From contig VEPM01000039.1 in the NCBI GenBank assembly GCA_012026795.1, positions 1-36,634 of the forward strand: DNA of 36,634 nucleotides, written 5' to 3'. The notes under the pieces were generated by a model. The model was not told the origin of the DNA. It did no database searches and saw nothing but the letters and a program-made list of their open reading frames with translations. This document shows positions 4,741-19,785 of this stretch, in pieces. Positions within the stretch are counted from its first letter, which is position 1, and every line of letters starts with the position of its first letter. This DNA comes from Candidatus Methanoperedens sp. (lineage in GTDB: Archaea > Halobacteriota > Methanosarcinia > Methanosarcinales > Methanoperedenaceae). Made by a program: the position numbers and the translations under genes.

Positions 4741-6987
4741 CTATATTTTCGCTCTCTTCATTAGAAGAGCGTTGATAACCACGCTTATGGAGCTTGCAGA
4801 CATTGTTATGGCGGCAAACTCGGGTCTCAAAACTATTCCGAAGGGAACAAGTATGCCAGCAGCTATTGGGATTGCCACAACATTGTAGCCTGTTGCCCAG
4901 ACCAGATTTTCATTCATTTTACGCATGGTCTTATTACTGAGCCTGATGAGCTTGGAAACATCCCTGGGGTCGTTTCTGATTAAAACAACATCCGCCGATT
5001 CCACTGCAACATCCGTGCCAGCGCCGATCGCTATTCCAACATTTGCCTGAACGAGCGCAGGTGCATCATTTATGCCGTCTCCAACCATCGCAGTTCTCTT
5101 TCCCTGGTCCTGCAATCCTTTTATTGTACTTGCTTTCTGCTCTGGAAGGACCTCGGCAAAGAACGTGGTCAATCCAAGCTCATTAGCCACGTAGGATGCT
5201 GTCTGCCTGTTATCCCCGGTGAGCATGGCTACTTCCAAGCCCATCTCTTTCAGGGCCCGAACAGCCTCTCTAGACTCCTCTCTTATCAAATCCGCCATGG
5301 CGATTAAGCCCTGGATTTTTTTATCTGCTGAAACGTAAACAACTGTCTTACCCTGAGACGAAAGTTTTGAGACCACATCCTGATATTCTTCAGGATTTAT
5401 CCCTAAGTCCTTCACCAGGTTTGCATTTCCTATATAAACCTCGCTGTTACCGATAATAGCCCTGGCGCCTTTTCCCGGAATAGCTGTAAACTTTTCAGCT
5501 TTTATGCTTTGAAAGCCATCTTCCTGTGCTTTTTTAACTATTCCTTTTGCTATAACGTGCTCCGAATTAACCTCTACGGCAACGGCATTTTCCAGAATCT
5601 CTTTATCTCTCCAGTTCCCCAGCTTAATGATATCTGTAACTCCGAACTCCCCTTTTGTTAAGGTTCCTGTTTTATCGAACACTACAATGTCGATATTCTT
5701 CGCGATTTCAAGCGCTTCTGCGTTCTTTATGAGCATCCCTCTATTGGCAGCCATGGTTGTGGATATCGATGTTACGGCTGGAATTGCTAAACCCAGAGCA
5801 TGAGGGCAGGCAATAACTATGACCGTGATAGCAAGGGTTAGAGCAAAAAGACTACCTGCCCCGACCCCAAACCAGAAAATGAATGTACCTCCGCCTACAA
5901 AGACTGCTATAATAGTCAGGTAACTGGCTGCTCTATCTGCAAGCTTCTGAACCCGGGGCTTAGAAGTCATGGCTTGTTCAACAAGGTTTATAATTTGAGC
6001 GATAGCTGTATCTTCCCCTGTTTTTGTCACCCGGACCTGGATTGCACCTTCAATATTTATCGTTCCGCCAATAACTTCGCTTTCTTTCCTCTTTTCTACA
6101 GGCTTTGACTCTCCCGTAACCATGGATTCATTGATTGAAGTTTCGCCCTCTACCACCGCTCCATCTACTGGAACTTTTTCCCCGGGTCTGATAAGAACGA
6201 TGTCTCCAACTTTAAGCTCAGAAGTAGGAATCTCGACTATCTCACCGTTCCTTATTAGATTAGCTGTAGGCGGAATCAGTTTCACAAGCTCTTTCAATGC
6301 TCCAGATGCGCTTCTCTCTGCTTTCATTTCCATCCAGTGACCAAAAAGAATAAATGTTGCCAAGGTGCTAATCTCCCAGTAAAAGTCCGGCGCTGTGAAA
6401 ATGAAAGTAGAGCCTAAACTATATAAATACCCTGACAGAAGAGCAATGCTCACGAGAACATTCATATCAAGAGTATGCAGCTTAAAAGCTTTAACTGAGC
6501 CTCTGTAGAAAATGAAACCTCCATACAAAATCACAACAGAAGCTGTAAGAACAAGCAGGTATCTCCAGATTGGAGATGGCGGCAGGGTATAGCCGGCCCA
6601 TGACTGTATCGACGGCGAGAGTATCAGAACAGGAATCGTGAAGATTGCAGCAACAATAAAATGCCTCTTCATCTCAGCCTCCATCATTGCATGGTGGTCA
6701 TGCGGTGCAGGTTTCTTCATTTTCGCTGCTTCATGCTCCATGTGGGCTTTGCCATAGACCGTTTTTTCTTCCTCACAGCGTATTCCGCATTTCTTTAACT
6801 CTTCGATTATATCCCCTGCACTGACCATGCCCTTATGGACTCTAACAGTCAGTAAGTTGTTCACAGGGTCGAATGTAGAATTAACGACATGCTCAATTGA
6901 ATTTACCATGTCTTCTACTTTACAGGAACATTCCGGGCGTATGTAATCGCGAATCTCAAACCTCAGTGTTTCTAACTGATCCTCCAT
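4741..6987 (-). CDS. copB: CopB-type copper-translocating P-type ATPase
   Basis: This P1B-type ATPase exports copper across the membrane at the cost of ATP. The sixth-helix metal motif is CPH (residues 394-396), which defines the CopB (P1B-3) group rather than the CPC of CopA. The TGES (291-294), DKTGT (438-442) and GDGIND motifs are present. The last helix has the MSxSS...NALLM signature. The N-terminus holds a divergent HMA-like domain with CSC (20-22) and a His/Met-rich stretch (PHDHHAMM), common in CopB. I use the ATG at 6987 (748 aa) because GGGGATC lies just upstream and the TATA box at 7021-7031 would otherwise fall inside the gene. It stands alone, divergent from phaC. Confidence 0.93.
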   Translation of the reverse strand: MEDQLETLRFEIRDYIRPECSCKVEDMVNSIEHVVNSTFDPVNNLLTVRVHKGMVSAGDIIEELKKCGIRCEEEKTVYGKAHMEHEAAKMKKPAPHDHHAMMEAEMKRHFIVAAIFTIPVLILSPSIQSWAGYTLPPSPIWRYLLVLTASVVILYGGFIFYRGSVKAFKLHTLDMNVLVSIALLSGYLYSLGSTFIFTAPDFYWEISTLATFILFGHWMEMKAERSASGALKELVKLIPPTANLIRNGEIVEIPTSELKVGDIVLIRPGEKVPVDGAVVEGETSINESMVTGESKPVEKRKESEVIGGTINIEGAIQVRVTKTGEDTAIAQIINLVEQAMTSKPRVQKLADRAASYLTIIAVFVGGGTFIFWFGVGAGSLFALTLAITVIVIACPHALGLAIPAVTSISTTMAANRGMLIKNAEALEIAKNIDIVVFDKTGTLTKGEFGVTDIIKLGNWRDKEILENAVAVEVNSEHVIAKGIVKKAQEDGFQSIKAEKFTAIPGKGARAIIGNSEVYIGNANLVKDLGINPEEYQDVVSKLSSQGKTVVYVSADKKIQGLIAMADLIREESREAVRALKEMGLEVAMLTGDNRQTASYVANELGLTTFFAEVLPEQKASTIKGLQDQGKRTAMVGDGINDAPALVQANVGIAIGAGTDVAVESADVVLIRNDPRDVSKLIRLSNKTMRKMNENLVWATGYNVVAIPIAAGILVPFGIVLRPEFAAITMSASSISVVINALLMKRAKI

Positions 6988-10756: not shown

Positions 10757-11165
10757 ACGAATGCCACTATTTACCCAGCTACAACCAGACCACCGGGGGC
10801 TAAACTAAGATATGAAGAACTCATTGATGGCCGCTTTACTACGAGGGATCATGTAGAGGAGCATAGTGTTAATCTTGTAGATAATCCGGATGACGCTCAC
10901 CTTGATGTTCATGTGAAAGTATTCAGTAGTGGCAAACTAAGCTTCCATGGTCAGGCAGGACAATTCAAGGCGGCATATATACTATGGTGGGATACTCCTA
11001 AAGAACCTACTCCTGAAGAACCTACTCCTGAAGAACCTACTCCTAAAGAACCTACTCCTAAAAAAACCCACTCCTAAATCATGCAGGACTGATCAAAAAT
11101 GCTGCGAACCCAATCCAGATGAGGGGTGTGATCTGTGTGTGCCAATCAAGTCCGAATGCCCATAA
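10757..11165 (+). pseudogene. Frameshifted Pro/Thr-repeat protein with Cys-rich tail
   Basis: A frame open from 10757 (no start codon found) encodes a soluble domain (LRYEELIDGRFTTRDHVEEH..., KVFSSGKLSFHGQAG...), then five copies of a TPKEP/TPEEP repeat, and stops at 11077. A run of seven A residues at 11060-11066 shifts the frame. With six, the frame continues PTPKS and then a tail with six cysteines (SCRTDQKCCEPNPDEGC..., ending KSECP) to the TAA at 11163-11165. This is most likely a decayed surface protein with a Pro/Thr stalk and a disulfide- or metal-binding tail. The N-terminus is missing as well. The family is unknown. Confidence 0.6.
10994..11068 (+). repeat. Five tandem 15-bp repeats (Thr-Pro-Lys/Glu-Glu-Pro)
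   Basis: The unit ACTCCT(A/G)AAGAACCT is repeated in frame, encoding a Pro/Thr stalk. The last unit is disturbed by the A7 run that breaks the frame. Confidence 0.8.
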
Positions 11166-14336: not shown

Positions 14337-14537
14337 TCAAGCATTTTCTTCCCGCCATTTACTACGTTCTCGAAGCTTCTTCAACTCCTTTGTTCTCTCC
14401 TCCGTGGCGATCTTTGTTATCGCTGACTGGATAGCCTGTATATCATCTGTAAATATCTTGTGCTCTATGAGGTAATCCAAATCCTTTATTACGGCTTGAC
14501 ATAGTAAGATACGAATACCAGAATATTGTCCTTCCAT
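14337..14537 (-). CDS. Small helical protein of the integrated element, 66 aa
   Basis: The family is unknown. GGAG lies 5 nt before the ATG, and the ATG directly follows the stop of the 32-codon gene (TGAATG), so the pair is coupled. The protein has two long amphipathic helices with a Lys/Arg/Glu-rich C-terminus (ERTKELKKLRERSKWREEN). It resembles the short accessory proteins of archaeal plasmids and viruses. Confidence 0.55.
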   Translation of the reverse strand: MEGQYSGIRILLCQAVIKDLDYLIEHKIFTDDIQAIQSAITKIATEERTKELKKLRERSKWREENA

Positions 14538-14826: not shown

Positions 14827-15180
14827 TCATTCCTCTTTCCCGCAATAAAGTGAGATCATTTCAACAGGAATGTAAACCCATGCGTTACCAATTTTGTATT
14901 CGTAAAATTCTGGATTTACTACGTCTGTGTCTTTTTCTCCTATTGAATAAGTGTGAGGTTTCATAATCGCCCACAGATCAGATCCAGGACGCCTTGAATT
15001 TCCAATTATTTTGCCTGCATTATCTTCAAGCAATTTCCAGGATACCCATGGTAGATTTGTTTCTTTAATGGTACTCTTCATAAAAATTATTATCTTTTTT
15101 AGTTTATCATCTTCTTTCGAGAGAAGTTTATTCAACTTATCATCTGAAAACTGTTTTGAGATATCTCTTTTTTTTGTCAT
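14827..15180 (-). CDS. Hypothetical protein of the integrated element, 117 aa
   Basis: The first half is Lys-rich and charged. The second half (RRPGSDLWAIMKPHTYSIGE..., FYEYKIGNAWVYIPVEMISL) looks like a small beta-rich domain. It follows the primase gene by 105 nt on the same strand. The ATG has only a weak ribosome binding site (GGGATTTT). No family is recognised. Confidence 0.5.
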   Translation of the reverse strand: MTKKRDISKQFSDDKLNKLLSKEDDKLKKIIIFMKSTIKETNLPWVSWKLLEDNAGKIIGNSRRPGSDLWAIMKPHTYSIGEKDTDVVNPEFYEYKIGNAWVYIPVEMISLYCGKEE

Positions 15181-15285: not shown

Positions 15286-16368
15286 TCACTCCTCTTTTTT
15301 AATATTTGAATTGAGTTCCTCTTCGTTAATATTTATAACCAGATGATCGCTTACAACTATACTTTTGCATACTGGACAGCATAACAAAATATAACCAGAT
15401 GGCCTATCTAATGAATGGAATTTGTTCCGGATATTGAGTATACAGCCGAGTGAATCACCCGAGGTCAATATATCTATCGCATTTTTCATCTTCTCGATAT
15501 CTATATTGTCCTCATTCGGGATATTTTTATGACAGGTCTTGCACATCTCCAATACTTCAGAGAAGTTTTCCTTGATCGTATCGCATCTCCACGTTTTCCT
15601 TTCATCAACATTCCTCCACTCATCAGCAGTTCGCTTTGAATCGTAGTCTTCCCTATAAACTTTCTTTGCGTACAACCTGAACTCTTCAAGAGTCACTTGC
15701 TGGGCTTTCAGCTCAGTTGCAGTTGCAAGCATCAGCCTTCGCCCCTCTTTGCCGTGCATCGTATCCCTTGATTGATTTATGACCCACTTGAAGCATGTAC
15801 GACAGCCCCTCATTTTGGCTTCAAGCGACTTCAACATGGCGAATCTCTCAATGACCGCTTCCGGTAATTCCGGAAACTCGAAGGTTTCAAGGTCTGCCCC
15901 TTCCGGTAAAATCCATTTATATTGCTGACCTTCCCTGTGTATTGATGGAGGTACAACCACCTGATTGCCGGAAGTAAGTATTTCAATCCCGAACTCCCGG
16001 AGCTTCTGAGCGCCCACTTTGTCCATAAACCTGAAATAAGCGTGACCTCTACCTGTAACTCTTCCTGCCCTTAGTGTCCTTTCAAGAATCTTCTGCTCTG
16101 GAGGGAAAAGGACATCTACCCAGTCAAGCTTATCAAAATCAATTACCAATATGCTGCTCTCTTTTCCCAGGACAAGACCTAAATTATTATTAGTTTTCTC
16201 AAACCATTCTTTTAACTCGGTTGTTGTAGCCTTCTTGCGTTTCTGCCAGCTATTTAGTAGAGGTCTCTTCCCGGGACTATTTCCTGTATCCCCCGGACCT
16301 GTTAGGGGATGGATCACCCAGCCTTTTCTGGTGAGTTTAATGGCCTCGTTCAGCTGTTCTATTCCCAA
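15286..16368 (-). CDS. Bifunctional DNA primase/polymerase (prim-pol)
   Basis: This 360-residue protein has the prim-pol N-terminal domain typical of plasmid and virus replication proteins. It makes primers and extends DNA. Features are GWVIHPLTGP near the start, NNLGLVLG (61-68), the metal-binding pair in LVIDFDKLD (D77, D79), GRGHAYFRF with His109, and the conserved ILTSGNQVVVPPSIHREGQQ segment (130-149). A Cys-rich part follows (GCRTCFKW, CKTCHKNI, CCPVCKS), which may bind zinc. There is no helicase domain. It starts with TTG, with GGTGAT 3 nt upstream, and follows the ERCC4-like gene by 12 nt. It is the core replication gene of the integrated element. Confidence 0.88.
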   Translation of the reverse strand: MGIEQLNEAIKLTRKGWVIHPLTGPGDTGNSPGKRPLLNSWQKRKKATTTELKEWFEKTNNNLGLVLGKESSILVIDFDKLDWVDVLFPPEQKILERTLRAGRVTGRGHAYFRFMDKVGAQKLREFGIEILTSGNQVVVPPSIHREGQQYKWILPEGADLETFEFPELPEAVIERFAMLKSLEAKMRGCRTCFKWVINQSRDTMHGKEGRRLMLATATELKAQQVTLEEFRLYAKKVYREDYDSKRTADEWRNVDERKTWRCDTIKENFSEVLEMCKTCHKNIPNEDNIDIEKMKNAIDILTSGDSLGCILNIRNKFHSLDRPSGYILLCCPVCKSIVVSDHLVININEEELNSNIKKEE

Positions 16369-16380
16369 ACTATCACCATT

Positions 16381-16827
16381 TTATTGTATCTTCTGAATTC
16401 TGCTGGGTCCAGGTTTGTTCAAATGCTCAGCTCTGGCAATGCTGGATATTACCTCAGCTGTCTGCGCTTCGTTCAAAGTGAAAAGTGTCGAAACTCCGAA
16501 AGAAACAGCTATAGTCTTAAGGAAGCTCTGAATGAAAGAAAGATTAACCGGTCTACCTGGAAAGAAGGGGTCTTCTCCTTCAATAATCAGGATTCGGCAT
16601 TCATAGACCTTTGTCATGTTCCCCATTGCGCTGAATAGTTTCTCGCCCTTGAAAATTGATTTAAGGATATCATTAACTGTCAGGCGCTTGAAAGCAATCC
16701 TGCGGTTTACTATATAATCCCCGGATTCAAGTGTTGCGATCTCGATTTCAAGGTCCTGGTTTTCAAGTGCCTTTACTACACCTGAATCCTTCTCCTTTGA
16801 ATTAATAACAACTCTGTAATGCTTCAA
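16381..16827 (-). CDS. ERCC4-like nuclease domain protein with altered active site
   Basis: The fold elements of the XPF/Mus81 nuclease domain are present: YRVVINSKEKDSGVVKAL, LEIEIATLESGDYIV (GDY near 36-38), DILKSIFKGEKLFSAMGNM, and YECRILIIEGEDPFF. The catalytic ERKxxxD is replaced by KRLTVND (residues 47-53): Asp53 and the Arg remain, but Glu and Lys are lost. It may be a structural or DNA-binding relative rather than a working nuclease. I choose TTG at 16827 (148 aa), with GGAG 9 nt upstream, close to where the family domain begins. A TTG at 16872 is also open. Primase follows by 12 nt. Confidence 0.7.
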   Translation of the reverse strand: MKHYRVVINSKEKDSGVVKALENQDLEIEIATLESGDYIVNRRIAFKRLTVNDILKSIFKGEKLFSAMGNMTKVYECRILIIEGEDPFFPGRPVNLSFIQSFLKTIAVSFGVSTLFTLNEAQTAEVISSIARAEHLNKPGPSRIQKIQ

Positions 16828-17098
16828 GTCTTTTCTCCATGAATACAAGAGGCAAGGGAGAGATTGACACAATCCTCCCGGACAGATTTTTGTAGGGTTG
16901 CTGTAGCTGTGCTATTCCAGTTATGGACGCTCTAAGATGTGCGGCACAGCCTGCCAATGGATAAAAGGAATTGTATGAGATATTTCTATATTCACTCAAT
17001 TTGTTTTTTCTGAACCATGAAATCCGGTGTCGTAAGTTCAATTCGGTTATTAGGACATCTTCAAAGTCATTCTTCAATTGTTCTTTCATTTTCCTCAT
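16802..17098 (-). CDS. Hypothetical protein, 98 aa, overlapping the ERCC4-like gene
   Basis: This is the first frame after a well-formed promoter (TATA at 17141-17148). It is basic and helical at the start (MRKMKEQLKNDFEDVLITEL). It overlaps the ERCC4-like start by 26 nt in another frame, so it might serve to couple translation. No family is recognised, and the ribosome binding site is weak (GAAAG). It may instead be part of a long leader. Confidence 0.4.
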   Translation of the reverse strand: MRKMKEQLKNDFEDVLITELNLRHRISWFRKNKLSEYRNISYNSFYPLAGCAAHLRASITGIAQLQQPYKNLSGRIVSISPLPLVFMEKRLEALQSCY

Positions 17099-17104
17099 CT
17101 TTCG

Positions 17105-17174
17105 TAATATAATACGTACTTATTATTATATGTTTTATATCTATAAATACTTTTATGTAACATGATACGTACGT
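17105..17174. promoter_or_regulatory. Promoter with two 17-bp operator-like repeats
   Basis: TAATATAATACGTACTT (17105-17121) and TAACATGATACGTACGT (17158-17174) match at 14 of 17 bases, 53 bp apart and in the same direction. A TATA box (TTTATAGA on the minus strand, 17141-17148) lies between them. One copy sits at the expected start of transcription, the other on the upstream side. A third copy is at 18320-18334. Confidence 0.6.
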
Positions 17175-17209
17175 TTTGATAACATGGTTTTTTTCTTTTA
17201 TTCTGATAA

Positions 17210-17875
17210 CTAACAGAATTTTAATCTCTCAACAAAACCAACTTTAAGACCGATCTTCCACCCGAATTCATCTTTTCTTGTGTAAATGCACCCTTCTTCT
17301 TTTAACCGGGCTATGGCTGTCGGGGCATCTATTGCACTTACCCCAGTTTCATCACAGAAATGATATAAATCACGAAAATAGCGATACTTCTCTCCTGTCC
17401 TCTCATAGTGTTGCACCAGTACCTCTACTACTACTCGTTCAGGATCGGCGATGTCTGACCGGGATGTAAAAATTGATAGGTTCAGCTGATGCGATTCTTT
17501 GGGACTGTCTAAAGTTCGTGTTGTATTCGTGTTGTATTTGTGTTGTACATGTGTTGTATTCGTGTTGTAATTATTATTATTAATGCTTAATATTAAAAAA
17601 CCATAAGGCGTGGCCTGCCAGCCCCATCGTTCTTTTCTTTCAAGAATACCATTTTTTTCTCCTCTTGGAAGAATAACAGTTAAAGCCTTGATTGATATTC
17701 CTGTCCTATCAGAAATTTCCCTTGTAGTCATTCCACCGCTATTGGAAAGAATACTGAGGATCTCTATGGTTTTTCCTCTGAACTTGCAGGGATTTGAAAT
17801 AAGATTAGTAGGAGTAGGAGTGCTGCTGGTAATTTTGAAAAGGTTCTTTTCTTGATATTTCTTTTTTTCAGGCAC
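17210..17875 (-). CDS. Protein with two winged-helix domains; candidate replication initiator
   Basis: The first winged helix spans about 33-95 (MTTREISDRTGISIKALTVI, wing ERKERWGWQATPYG). The second spans about 140-212 (TGVSAIDAPTAIARLKEEGC, wing TRKDEFGWKIGLKVG). Both wings end in a similar charged-x-GW pattern, which suggests duplication. Between them lies a low-complexity Asn/Thr linker (about 97-125), encoded by five 11-bp direct repeats and an AT-only stretch. Two winged helices are the build of many iteron-binding plasmid initiators, but I see no family-level match. A transcription regulator is the alternative. It starts with GTG, with GGAG 7 nt upstream. The gene lies two small genes downstream of the element's promoter. 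Confidence 0.65.
   Translation of the reverse strand: MPEKKKYQEKNLFKITSSTPTPTNLISNPCKFRGKTIEILSILSNSGGMTTREISDRTGISIKALTVILPRGEKNGILERKERWGWQATPYGFLILSINNNNYNTNTTHVQHKYNTNTTRTLDSPKESHQLNLSIFTSRSDIADPERVVVEVLVQHYERTGEKYRYFRDLYHFCDETGVSAIDAPTAIARLKEEGCIYTRKDEFGWKIGLKVGFVERLKFC
17517..17600. repeat. Five 11-bp direct repeats plus AT-rich stretch (candidate origin)
   Basis: Five units with the core GTGTTGTA start at 17517, 17528, 17539, 17550 and 17561, exactly 11 bp apart. The units are CGTGTTGTATT twice, TGTGTTGTACA, TGTGTTGTATT and CGTGTTGTAAT. Immediately after comes about 30 bp of nearly pure A/T (17569-17597). Direct repeats in helical phase beside an easily melted stretch are the hallmarks of an iteron origin. 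Because 11 is not a multiple of 3, the repeat was kept at the DNA level and not merely as a protein repeat. Confidence 0.6.
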
Positions 17876-17974: not shown

Positions 17975-18142
17975 TCACTGGATATCATTTGAAGTCACTA
18001 TTGCCTTTGCCCACTCGATCGCTTTCCTCAGCATCGGATTCGTATTCTTTGCAAGTTGATAGATCTCATCCGGGGCATTGGCATACATCTGAACCAGCGG
18101 GTCATTACGGAGTTTTTCAAGGTCAGATTTTGTCGCTATCAT
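17975..18142 (-). CDS. Small protein, 55 aa
   Basis: GGAAGGA lies 3 nt before the ATG, and the ATG overlaps the previous stop (ATGA). The protein (MIATKSDLEKLRNDPLVQMY..., ending EWAKAIVTSNDIQ) is helical, acidic and soluble. The family is unknown. It is the second gene of the operon that leads to the winged-helix protein. Between its stop and the winged-helix start lie 99 nt with very short overlapping frames only. Confidence 0.6.
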   Translation of the reverse strand: MIATKSDLEKLRNDPLVQMYANAPDEIYQLAKNTNPMLRKAIEWAKAIVTSNDIQ

Positions 18143-18315
18143 GATTCCTTCCTTTTATTTGTTTGAGTGACTACGATGCGCTTGTTCTCCAAATCATAAT
18201 CAATGTCTAACGGCTCTCCCTTCTTCCATCTAAAGCCTATTTCAATCAGGAGTTTATCAAAATAAACATAGGGATATTGCCTATCAGATGTTTTTTGTAG
18301 CTTTGTTTTTGTCAT
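18139..18315 (-). CDS. Small basic protein, 58 aa, possibly AbrB-like
   Basis: This is the first gene after a good BRE/TATA promoter, with a very short leader. The C-terminal half (IEIGFRWKKGEPLDIDYDLE then NKRIVV) recalls the swapped-hairpin beta strands of AbrB/SpoVT-type DNA-binding proteins (K-G-x-P-L-x-I...xIxI). That likeness is weak. If correct, it could be the element's repressor. It is coupled to the 55-residue gene by an ATGA overlap. Confidence 0.6.
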   Translation of the reverse strand: MTKTKLQKTSDRQYPYVYFDKLLIEIGFRWKKGEPLDIDYDLENKRIVVTQTNKRKES

Positions 18316-18319
18316 ATAC

Positions 18320-18360
18320 GTGCGTGTTATATTATGTATAAATTAATTTATAACTTTCGG
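18320..18360 (-). promoter_or_regulatory. BRE/TATA promoter with operator copy
   Basis: On the minus strand CCGAAAG (18354-18360) and TTATAAAT (18346-18353) form a BRE and TATA box. About 25 bp downstream, over the expected start, lies TAATATAACACGCAC (18320-18334). This matches the motif at 17105 in 13 of 15 bases. It drives the 58-aa, 55-aa and winged-helix genes. Confidence 0.65.
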
Positions 18361-18606: not shown

Positions 18607-19785
18607 TTATTTCGTAATCCCTGCTAACAATTTCTTTGCTTCGTCGTTCTTAAGCAGCAGTTCTATGAGTTGAGGTATTTGTTTTTCGTAATTCTGAATT
18701 TCTTTCGCTGCTTTAGTATCCAACACTAGAGAACATTGTGGACAGAATCTTGAACCTGGAGGGAGAGTTGTATTACACCTTGGACAGTTCGTCAGTTTTA
18801 TTTCTGTGATCTGAGACTGCTTAATTCCGTAATGTTCCAGGATATTTGAATTAATGTCCTCTGATGTGAAATGGCCATATACTTTCATCATTCTGCTGTC
18901 GAGTGACCATGTTGCACGATGTTTTATTTCCTGATCTGAAAATCTTTCAAGTATCCATTTAGAAACTGCACGATGTTTAAATATATGAGGATTAATTTTT
19001 TTCTTGATACCTGCACGCTCCCCAGTTGTCTTTATCATTGCTCGTATATTTTTATAGCTCATCGCCTGACCGAAAGGCCAATCCAGATTGATCCACAACG
19101 GACTATTTGTATCTTCACGAGTGGGATGGACTGATAACCACTGTCCAATATAGCCACATGACCAGGTGATAGGAACCGGTTTGGAGAAGGTTTTGTTGCT
19201 TTTACTATTTCTGTTTGGCCGAACAATCCCAGAGTTTGTACCGAGCTCGATATTCCCGATCAGGAGAGATCCCACAGCACCCACCCTGAGACCGCTATCG
19301 AGAAGAATTGCAATAAGTGCACGATCTCGAGCATTTTTACATGAATTCAGAAGTTTCTCAGCTTCTGAATCAGTCAGCAAATCCTTTGGTTCGACCTGGT
19401 TCTCAATTGCACTGAGTTTCATATCTCGAATAAACTTTGGCATCTCCCCATCCGTCAACCAATCGTACAATTTTTTGAGTGTTTTTTTAAAATTATAGAT
19501 ATACCCTGGCTTGTACCCTTCACTTTCCAAGGAAAGGAGCAACAAATCTAAGTCACTTTCAGTTAAAGCATCAAGGTCTTTATTAAGTCTTTTAGCGATC
19601 CGAACCAGAATATTCAAATAATTTGTATAAGTGCATTGCGTGATATTTTCTTTCATGCAGAGGGCTACAAACCTTTTAGTCAGATCTTTATTGTGATCGC
19701 TTATAGGCGCTGTCTCTAATCGCTTCATAGCTTGCTGGAATCCTATCTTGAATCCATGAATATCATTAACATCGTGACCTGTCAT
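18607..19785 (-). CDS. Tyrosine recombinase/integrase with C-terminal zinc ribbon
   Basis: This 392-residue integrase has a SAM-like core-binding domain (about 35-125) and a catalytic domain. Arg167 (LLDSGLRVGAV), His267 in PHIFKH, and the nucleophile Tyr303 in MMKVYGHFTSED are visible. The second conserved Arg of the HxxR box is Lys270 here. A zinc ribbon follows (CPRC 334-337, CPQC 348-351), seen in integrases of methanogen and haloarchaeal elements. It should integrate or excise the neighbouring replicon. The ATG has no ribosome binding site, so a leaderless message is possible. Confidence 0.9.
   Translation of the reverse strand: MTGHDVNDIHGFKIGFQQAMKRLETAPISDHNKDLTKRFVALCMKENITQCTYTNYLNILVRIAKRLNKDLDALTESDLDLLLLSLESEGYKPGYIYNFKKTLKKLYDWLTDGEMPKFIRDMKLSAIENQVEPKDLLTDSEAEKLLNSCKNARDRALIAILLDSGLRVGAVGSLLIGNIELGTNSGIVRPNRNSKSNKTFSKPVPITWSCGYIGQWLSVHPTREDTNSPLWINLDWPFGQAMSYKNIRAMIKTTGERAGIKKKINPHIFKHRAVSKWILERFSDQEIKHRATWSLDSRMMKVYGHFTSEDINSNILEHYGIKQSQITEIKLTNCPRCNTTLPPGSRFCPQCSLVLDTKAAKEIQNYEKQIPQLIELLLKNDEAKKLLAGITK

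Follow-up and report, generated by a model that had tools for sequence, protein, structure and literature searches.

A candidate replication origin of 11-bp repeats within the linker codons of a predicted two-winged-helix protein gene in Methanoperedens

Origins of replication situated inside initiator genes have been described in bacterial phages and plasmids. In plasmid pSK41, the N-terminal winged helix of Rep binds Rep boxes located mid-way along the gene that encodes it, the linker specified by the origin serves as a spacer that can be dispensed with, and the C-terminal domain is host-group specific; in pPR9, the N-terminal domain and the origin have been exchanged together (PMC5703833). 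The iterons and the A/T-rich region of phage lambda lie in the O gene, at the linker that joins the DNA-binding N-terminal part of the protein to its recruiting C-terminal part (PMC6022878; PMC7466680). The minimal replicon of the archaeal plasmid pRN1 includes essential DNA up- and downstream of the replication operon (PMC4234260). The HMp plasmids of Methanoperedens have a predicted Orc1/Cdc6-type origin by a long AT-rich intergenic region (PMC9674854), and the origin reported for a Methanosarcina plasmid is of the rolling-circle type (PMC9569500). An archaeal origin made of iterons inside an initiator gene, of the build described here, was not found in the open-access literature searched, in agreement with the earlier note on this DNA, which knew of none.

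The stretch analyzed, referred to as the window, is 36,634 bp long and constitutes contig 39 of a 3.59-Mb genome of Candidatus Methanoperedens sp. It contains an operon-like run of genes in the order 58-aa ORF, 55-aa ORF, 221-aa ORF, 98-aa ORF, ERCC4 nuclease, primase-polymerase (Prim-Pol) and 117-aa ORF, with a tyrosine integrase upstream. The features are as follows, with the evidence in parentheses.

18607-19785, minus strand: tyrosine integrase of the element (PF00589, 4.8e-17; homologues beside the module in three relatives)
18313-18335, minus strand: conserved ACGCACGT motif at the operon promoter, not varying with the recognition helix (comparison of relatives)
18139-18315, minus strand: 58-aa ORF, operon start (DNA-level conservation in relatives)
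17975-18142, minus strand: 55-aa ORF, operon member (comparison with relatives)
17210-17875, minus strand: 221-aa candidate initiator, GTG start (ORF call; homologues)
17573-17776, minus strand: N-terminal winged helix, residues 34-101 (Pfam HTH_24, 5.2e-7; AlphaFold2)
17651-17695, minus strand: recognition helix codons, residues 61-75, co-varying with the repeat unit (alignment of relatives)
17570-17603, unstranded: A/T-rich tract next to the array, a candidate DNA-unwinding element (base composition)
17515-17569, unstranded: five 11-bp direct repeats, putative iterons, coding-strand unit TACAACACGAA (Tandem Repeats Finder, core positions, significance tests)
17495-17572, minus strand: array-encoded disordered linker, residues 102-127 (pLDDT <50)
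17213-17479, minus strand: C-terminal winged helix, residues 133-221, conserved domain (AlphaFold2; 0.89 amino acid identity)
16802-17098, minus strand: 98-aa ORF common to the window and two relatives (homologues)
16381-16872, minus strand: protein with ERCC4/Hef-type nuclease domain (PF02732, 8e-15; Hef model NF010337, 5.9e-31, below its cut-off)
15286-16368, minus strand: primase-polymerase, C-terminal ATPase part deleted relative to 589-aa homologues (PF09250, 3.1e-23; alignment gap; lengths)
14827-15180, minus strand: 117-aa conserved operon member (homologues)
14337-14537, minus strand: 66-aa ORF common to the window and two relatives, where the shared segment ends on the left (homologues, alignment)

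The earlier note had drawn a parallel with lambda O. The layout does match, with iterons and an A/T-rich region inside the initiator gene, but that of the RepA_N family (N-terminal winged helix, origin in the linker codons, conserved C-terminal domain) is equally close. In the RepA_N plasmids pSK41 and pTZ2162 of Gram-positive bacteria the repeats are likewise situated in the rep gene between two folded domains, and the C-terminal domain is the one conserved within a host group. In RepA_N this domain is DnaD-like; here AlphaFold2 predicts a second winged helix, which may set it apart, the fold search having given generic winged-helix matches only. The present locus does differ in its simple 11-bp direct repeats, its archaeal host, and the Prim-Pol and nuclease genes of its operon; the RepA_N N-terminal domain PF06970 gave no Pfam match at E<=0.1. 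The lambda iterons contain an 18-bp hyphenated palindrome bound by dimers, in contrast to the 11-bp units of the window. The 221-aa protein has no match to the phage replication O N-terminal family in Pfam or PHROGs; one weak fold match is labelled GpO (E=4.8e-3). The best reading is that the layout would work like those of staphylococcal RepA_N and lambda O, without detectable relation to either. Tandem direct repeats at helical spacing beside an AT-rich element are shared with iteron-type origins generally. With pRN1-type plasmids, which pair the Prim-Pol RepA with the small winged-helix protein ORF80, the locus shares a Prim-Pol replication protein and a weak similarity of the first winged helix to the ORF80/pRN regulators. 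ORF80 is a one-domain regulator, and the essential DNA described for the pRN1 minimal replicon is not located in a winged-helix gene. The HMp plasmids share the host genus but have the different, Orc1/Cdc6 type of origin.

Tandem Repeats Finder places the array at 17515-17569 (period 11, 5.0 copies, score 82); only one tandem array of the window is stronger. This bears out the five units at 11-bp spacing noticed earlier. The starts given at that time were one base low, as the exact core GTGTTGTA begins at 17518, 17529, 17540, 17551 and 17562. This core does not recur on the same strand of the window, and its complement has only two single occurrences. The lag-11 identity of the array is 0.86, the best other lag reaching 0.54; none of 5000 within-array base shuffles and none of 2000 synonymous recodings of the window gene (p=0.0005) attained 0.86. 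The adjoining stretch of about 30 bp, described previously as nearly pure A/T, is indeed 28/30 A/T (17571-17600), and only 7 places in the window are equally A/T-rich. GC skew is uninformative for an integrated copy. A separate 15-bp repeat of 5.7 copies at 10993-11078, with the unit TACTCCTAAAGAACC, lies within a 72-aa ORF and is an ordinary coding repeat, its period being a multiple of 3.

The array encodes residues 102-120 on the minus strand and is therefore contained in the inter-domain linker, as had been proposed. The proposal of two winged-helix domains likewise stands, the first being recognized by Pfam HTH_24 and both by AlphaFold2, which predicts a helix-helix-helix-wing arrangement twice, at residues 35-101 and 134-219 (pLDDT about 70-90), separated by a linker at 102-127 whose pLDDT of <50 indicates disorder. 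The overall confidence of the model is modest (68.6), and the relative placement of the two domains carries no meaning. The first domain resembles MarR/HTH_24 regulators in Pfam. PDB sequence and fold searches with the 221-aa protein returned generic winged helices only, with no hit at E<=0.001 in the PDB fold search. In the codons of the N-terminal tail (17783-17875, minus strand), identical residues use the same codon at a frequency of 0.93, whereas the folded domains reach about 0.70, which may point to a further cis element.

A homologue search of 890 genomes and a set of genome contigs yielded 13 copies that retain the linker. Eight are close copies from Methanoperedens, a paralogue in the window's own genome among them; G007 and G009, also from the window's genus, are divergent; two come from a different family of the order (one titled Methanosarcinaceae); and G337, truncated at a contig end, belongs to another family of the phylum. 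A further copy, G046, is a C-terminal scrap and stands outside the 13. No detectable homologue of the 221-aa protein was present in the viral contigs, plasmids and phages searched. Relatives without repeats in the linker had been named beforehand as evidence that would speak against an origin; an 11-bp period was found within the linker-coding stretch, at the same place, in 13/13 copies, while the encoded peptides differ. The spacing and position are constant and the unit sequences differ between types, the units being, besides that of the window (W), GGATAAACGAA in C16, GTACAAACGAA in RBG, GATAAATCGAA/TATTAATCAAA in METP1, BLZ2 and Ig, GTAAACACTTG/TACAACACAAA in E14 and FeB1, GATAACAGAAA in MS161, GTAACAGAAGA in G100, CCTCAAATAAT in G007, GTAAAACAAAA in G009 and GGAAGAAAAAA in G337. 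In 12/12 homologues checked, the A/T-richest 34 bp of the gene adjoin the array, and asparagine codons in the A/T run are AAT in 44/44 cases, versus 45/71 elsewhere in these genes. Outside the array, repeat units occur within the elements at chance level only. Among the loci scanned, strong arrays of period 8-15 have period 11 only, save the one 15-bp coding array in the window, and all but one of the period-11 arrays lie inside the candidate initiator gene. N-terminal-only winged-helix matches in other genomes lack period 8-15 arrays at the threshold used, which also misses the weakest true arrays. In the G009 element (L053, G009:C123) a second 11-bp array with TTGTATTCAA units is located at 5118-5172, just before the integrase gene, and its sequence bears no relation to the array in that element's linker.

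Eight close copies are alignable, and their recognition helices fall into five types that match the iteron types: {METP1, BLZ2, Ig}, {E14, FeB1}, W, RBG and C16. W and C16 are paralogues of different type within one genome, the C16 paralogue (L049 9394-10050, G000:C16) carrying an in-frame TAA formed by an iteron unit itself. Averaged over the eight, amino acid identity is 83-89% for domain two (about 89%) and for the helices that open domain one, but falls to 55% for the recognition helix and to 30% for the linker. Between copies with the same helix, the array DNA is more conserved than the rest of the gene: BLZ2 and Ig agree at 53/54 array bases (0.98, versus 0.90 for the rest) and E14 and FeB1 at 48/54 (0.89 versus 0.83). 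Between copies with different helices, array identity drops to 0.44-0.70 although the rest of the gene is 0.81-0.91 identical; the W-RBG and RBG-Ig pairs have dissimilar arrays within this range, yet are 0.90-0.91 identical elsewhere. The linker DNA is thus most conserved within a type and least between types, as expected of a site bound by the variable helix. The rank correlation of helix and iteron identity over all pairs is not significant (rho 0.15) because the divergent pairs are all near saturation and the match is all-or-none. Since the grouping partly follows descent, the co-variation is given without a p-value; it is a handful of co-change events among five types rather than a large statistical sample. 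This co-variation makes DNA binding by the 221-aa protein the most likely use of the array, which is predicted with high confidence to consist of iterons bound by their own gene product.

The alternative that the array is a low-complexity protein linker grown by slippage, with no function as DNA, might be suggested by the asparagine-rich linker and the tandem units. However, 11 bp does not divide into whole codons, the peptides vary while period and place hold in 13 homologues, the recoding test gives p values of 0.0005-0.02, and the array DNA hardly changes within a type but differs between types. The arrays also survive a broken reading frame at the array of G009 and the in-frame TAA of C16. 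Growth of a protein repeat is accordingly rejected on the period, the recoding test and the within-type conservation, and has next to no chance of being correct; the earlier preference for selection at the DNA level holds. Placing the commonest unit in all five positions creates an in-frame stop in most of 11 genes tested, and the actual arrays escape it through a variant unit; in G100, unit 3 reads GGAACAG and the others GTAACAG. Reverting the deviant bases produced stops in 9/62 cases versus 79/1650 for random substitutions (p=0.004), which gives modest support as related copies are not independent.

The primase-polymerase that had been placed downstream in the same run is confirmed by PF09250, but the window copy is truncated and the element probably defective. 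It is about 750 bp shorter than that of BLZ2, and transposases lie to the left of the window copy, which has probably decayed; with the in-frame TAA of C16, the two copies of this genome may both be relics. For the 589-aa Prim-Pol the AlphaFold model is unusable (pLDDT 34.5), and the ATPase part rests on a Walker A-like GDSGGGKS read by eye. The ERCC4 nuclease and Prim-Pol share the operon at six loci. Prim-Pol is absent within the stretch read in E14, C16, MS161, G100 and G007, so the tie to a replicase is not universal, and the integrase is as frequent a neighbour as Prim-Pol; both observations count against an origin. The ACGTACGT/ACGCACGT motifs recur at the operon promoter (window 18313-18335) and downstream of the initiator gene (about 17108-17177), and are probably the site of a shared regulator.

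The G100 relative provides the clearest picture of mobility. The gene and an integrase lie inside an 8,690-bp element (L050 8467-17179, G100:C1), between rnhB-like and purQ-like genes, with exact 23-bp direct (att) repeats at its flanks, and the joined flanks are uninterrupted in five sister genomes; integrase, att repeats and empty sites thus mark it as an integrative element. About ten of its genes have no Pfam match, and the homologue of one is weakly like a minor tail protein; the element is possibly a small provirus. No primase match was found among the scanned genes of this complete element, which leaves the two-winged-helix protein as the best initiator candidate there. For the window copy no att sites were identified, its best direct repeats of 13 bp being no longer than expected by chance. 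In Ig and E14, a tRNA-Gln(TTG) directly upstream of the module (L018 7431-7507, L019 9445-9517) is a likely integration site. In METP1 and BLZ2, weak matches to a VirB4/FtsK-like ATPase and a T4SS-pilin-like protein beside the operon suggest conjugative integrative elements. A conserved block that includes genes for two such proteins and lies beside the module (L054 7738-13759, L016 14498-20517, L049 10698-16742) is a possible archaeal conjugation system.

Taken from sequence comparison and structure prediction, the locus probably forms the core replicon of an integrative mobile element, with the 221-aa protein as an initiator that binds iterons in its own gene, the candidate origin. The N-terminal winged helix would read the 11-bp iterons, with monomers spaced one helical turn apart on a single face of the DNA. 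The resulting nucleoprotein array would strain the adjoining A/T tract and lead to its melting. The conserved C-terminal winged helix would recruit replication proteins of the host or the element, probably including the Prim-Pol/ATPase of the operon. The disordered linker presumably tolerates nearly any peptide, so that its codons can house the iterons, and with the iterons inside the initiator gene, origin and initiator would travel together. Iteron changes matched by changes of the recognition helix would generate separate specificity types, possibly incompatibility groups.

Three other functions for a protein bound to these repeats were weighed. TubR is a winged-helix protein that binds tandem repeats, and co-diversification of repeat and binding helix would suit partition incompatibility as well, so the array might be a centromere and the protein its TubR-like binding partner. 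This is unlikely, as the genes scanned in the window operon and across the complete 8.7-kb element of G100 gave no match to a ParA, ParM or TubZ-like motor, an A/T tract adjoins the array, and Prim-Pol occupies the same operon at six loci. Still less probable is a recombination directionality factor with the array as its arm sites. Excisionases can be winged helices on direct repeats, and an integrase is located beside or near the gene at eight loci, immediately downstream in MS161 and G100; however, in G100 the left and right att repeats lie about 1.5 kb and 7 kb, respectively, from the array, and the array is kept in Ig, E14 and RBG, which have no integrase in the stretch read.

An autoregulatory operator, acting by repression through repeats in the protein's own coding region or in superinfection immunity, would agree with the MarR/HTH_24 resemblance of the first domain, and repressor-operator pairs co-diversify too. 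Yet the array lies some 300 bp into the gene, away from the promoter, and the units are absent elsewhere in the elements. The promoters bear a different, ACGYACGT-like motif that is much alike whatever the recognition helix; variation of the helix is accordingly not tied to the promoters. An operator is about as improbable as arm sites.

Returning to the initiator and its in-gene origin, the matched changes of helix and iteron suggest a new family of archaeal plasmid initiators. On balance, though with considerable reservation, we favor a family with two winged helices and the origin in the linker codons, whose types arose by matched helix and iteron replacement, letting the elements escape mutual incompatibility, and whose arrays were shaped by recognition together with stop avoidance in three frames. 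If this is right, the same layout would have evolved independently in another domain of life. The matched helix/site pairs would form a natural series for working out the initiator's DNA-recognition code, and the gene would supply a portable candidate origin-plus-initiator of about 670 bp for Methanosarcinales, where vectors are few.
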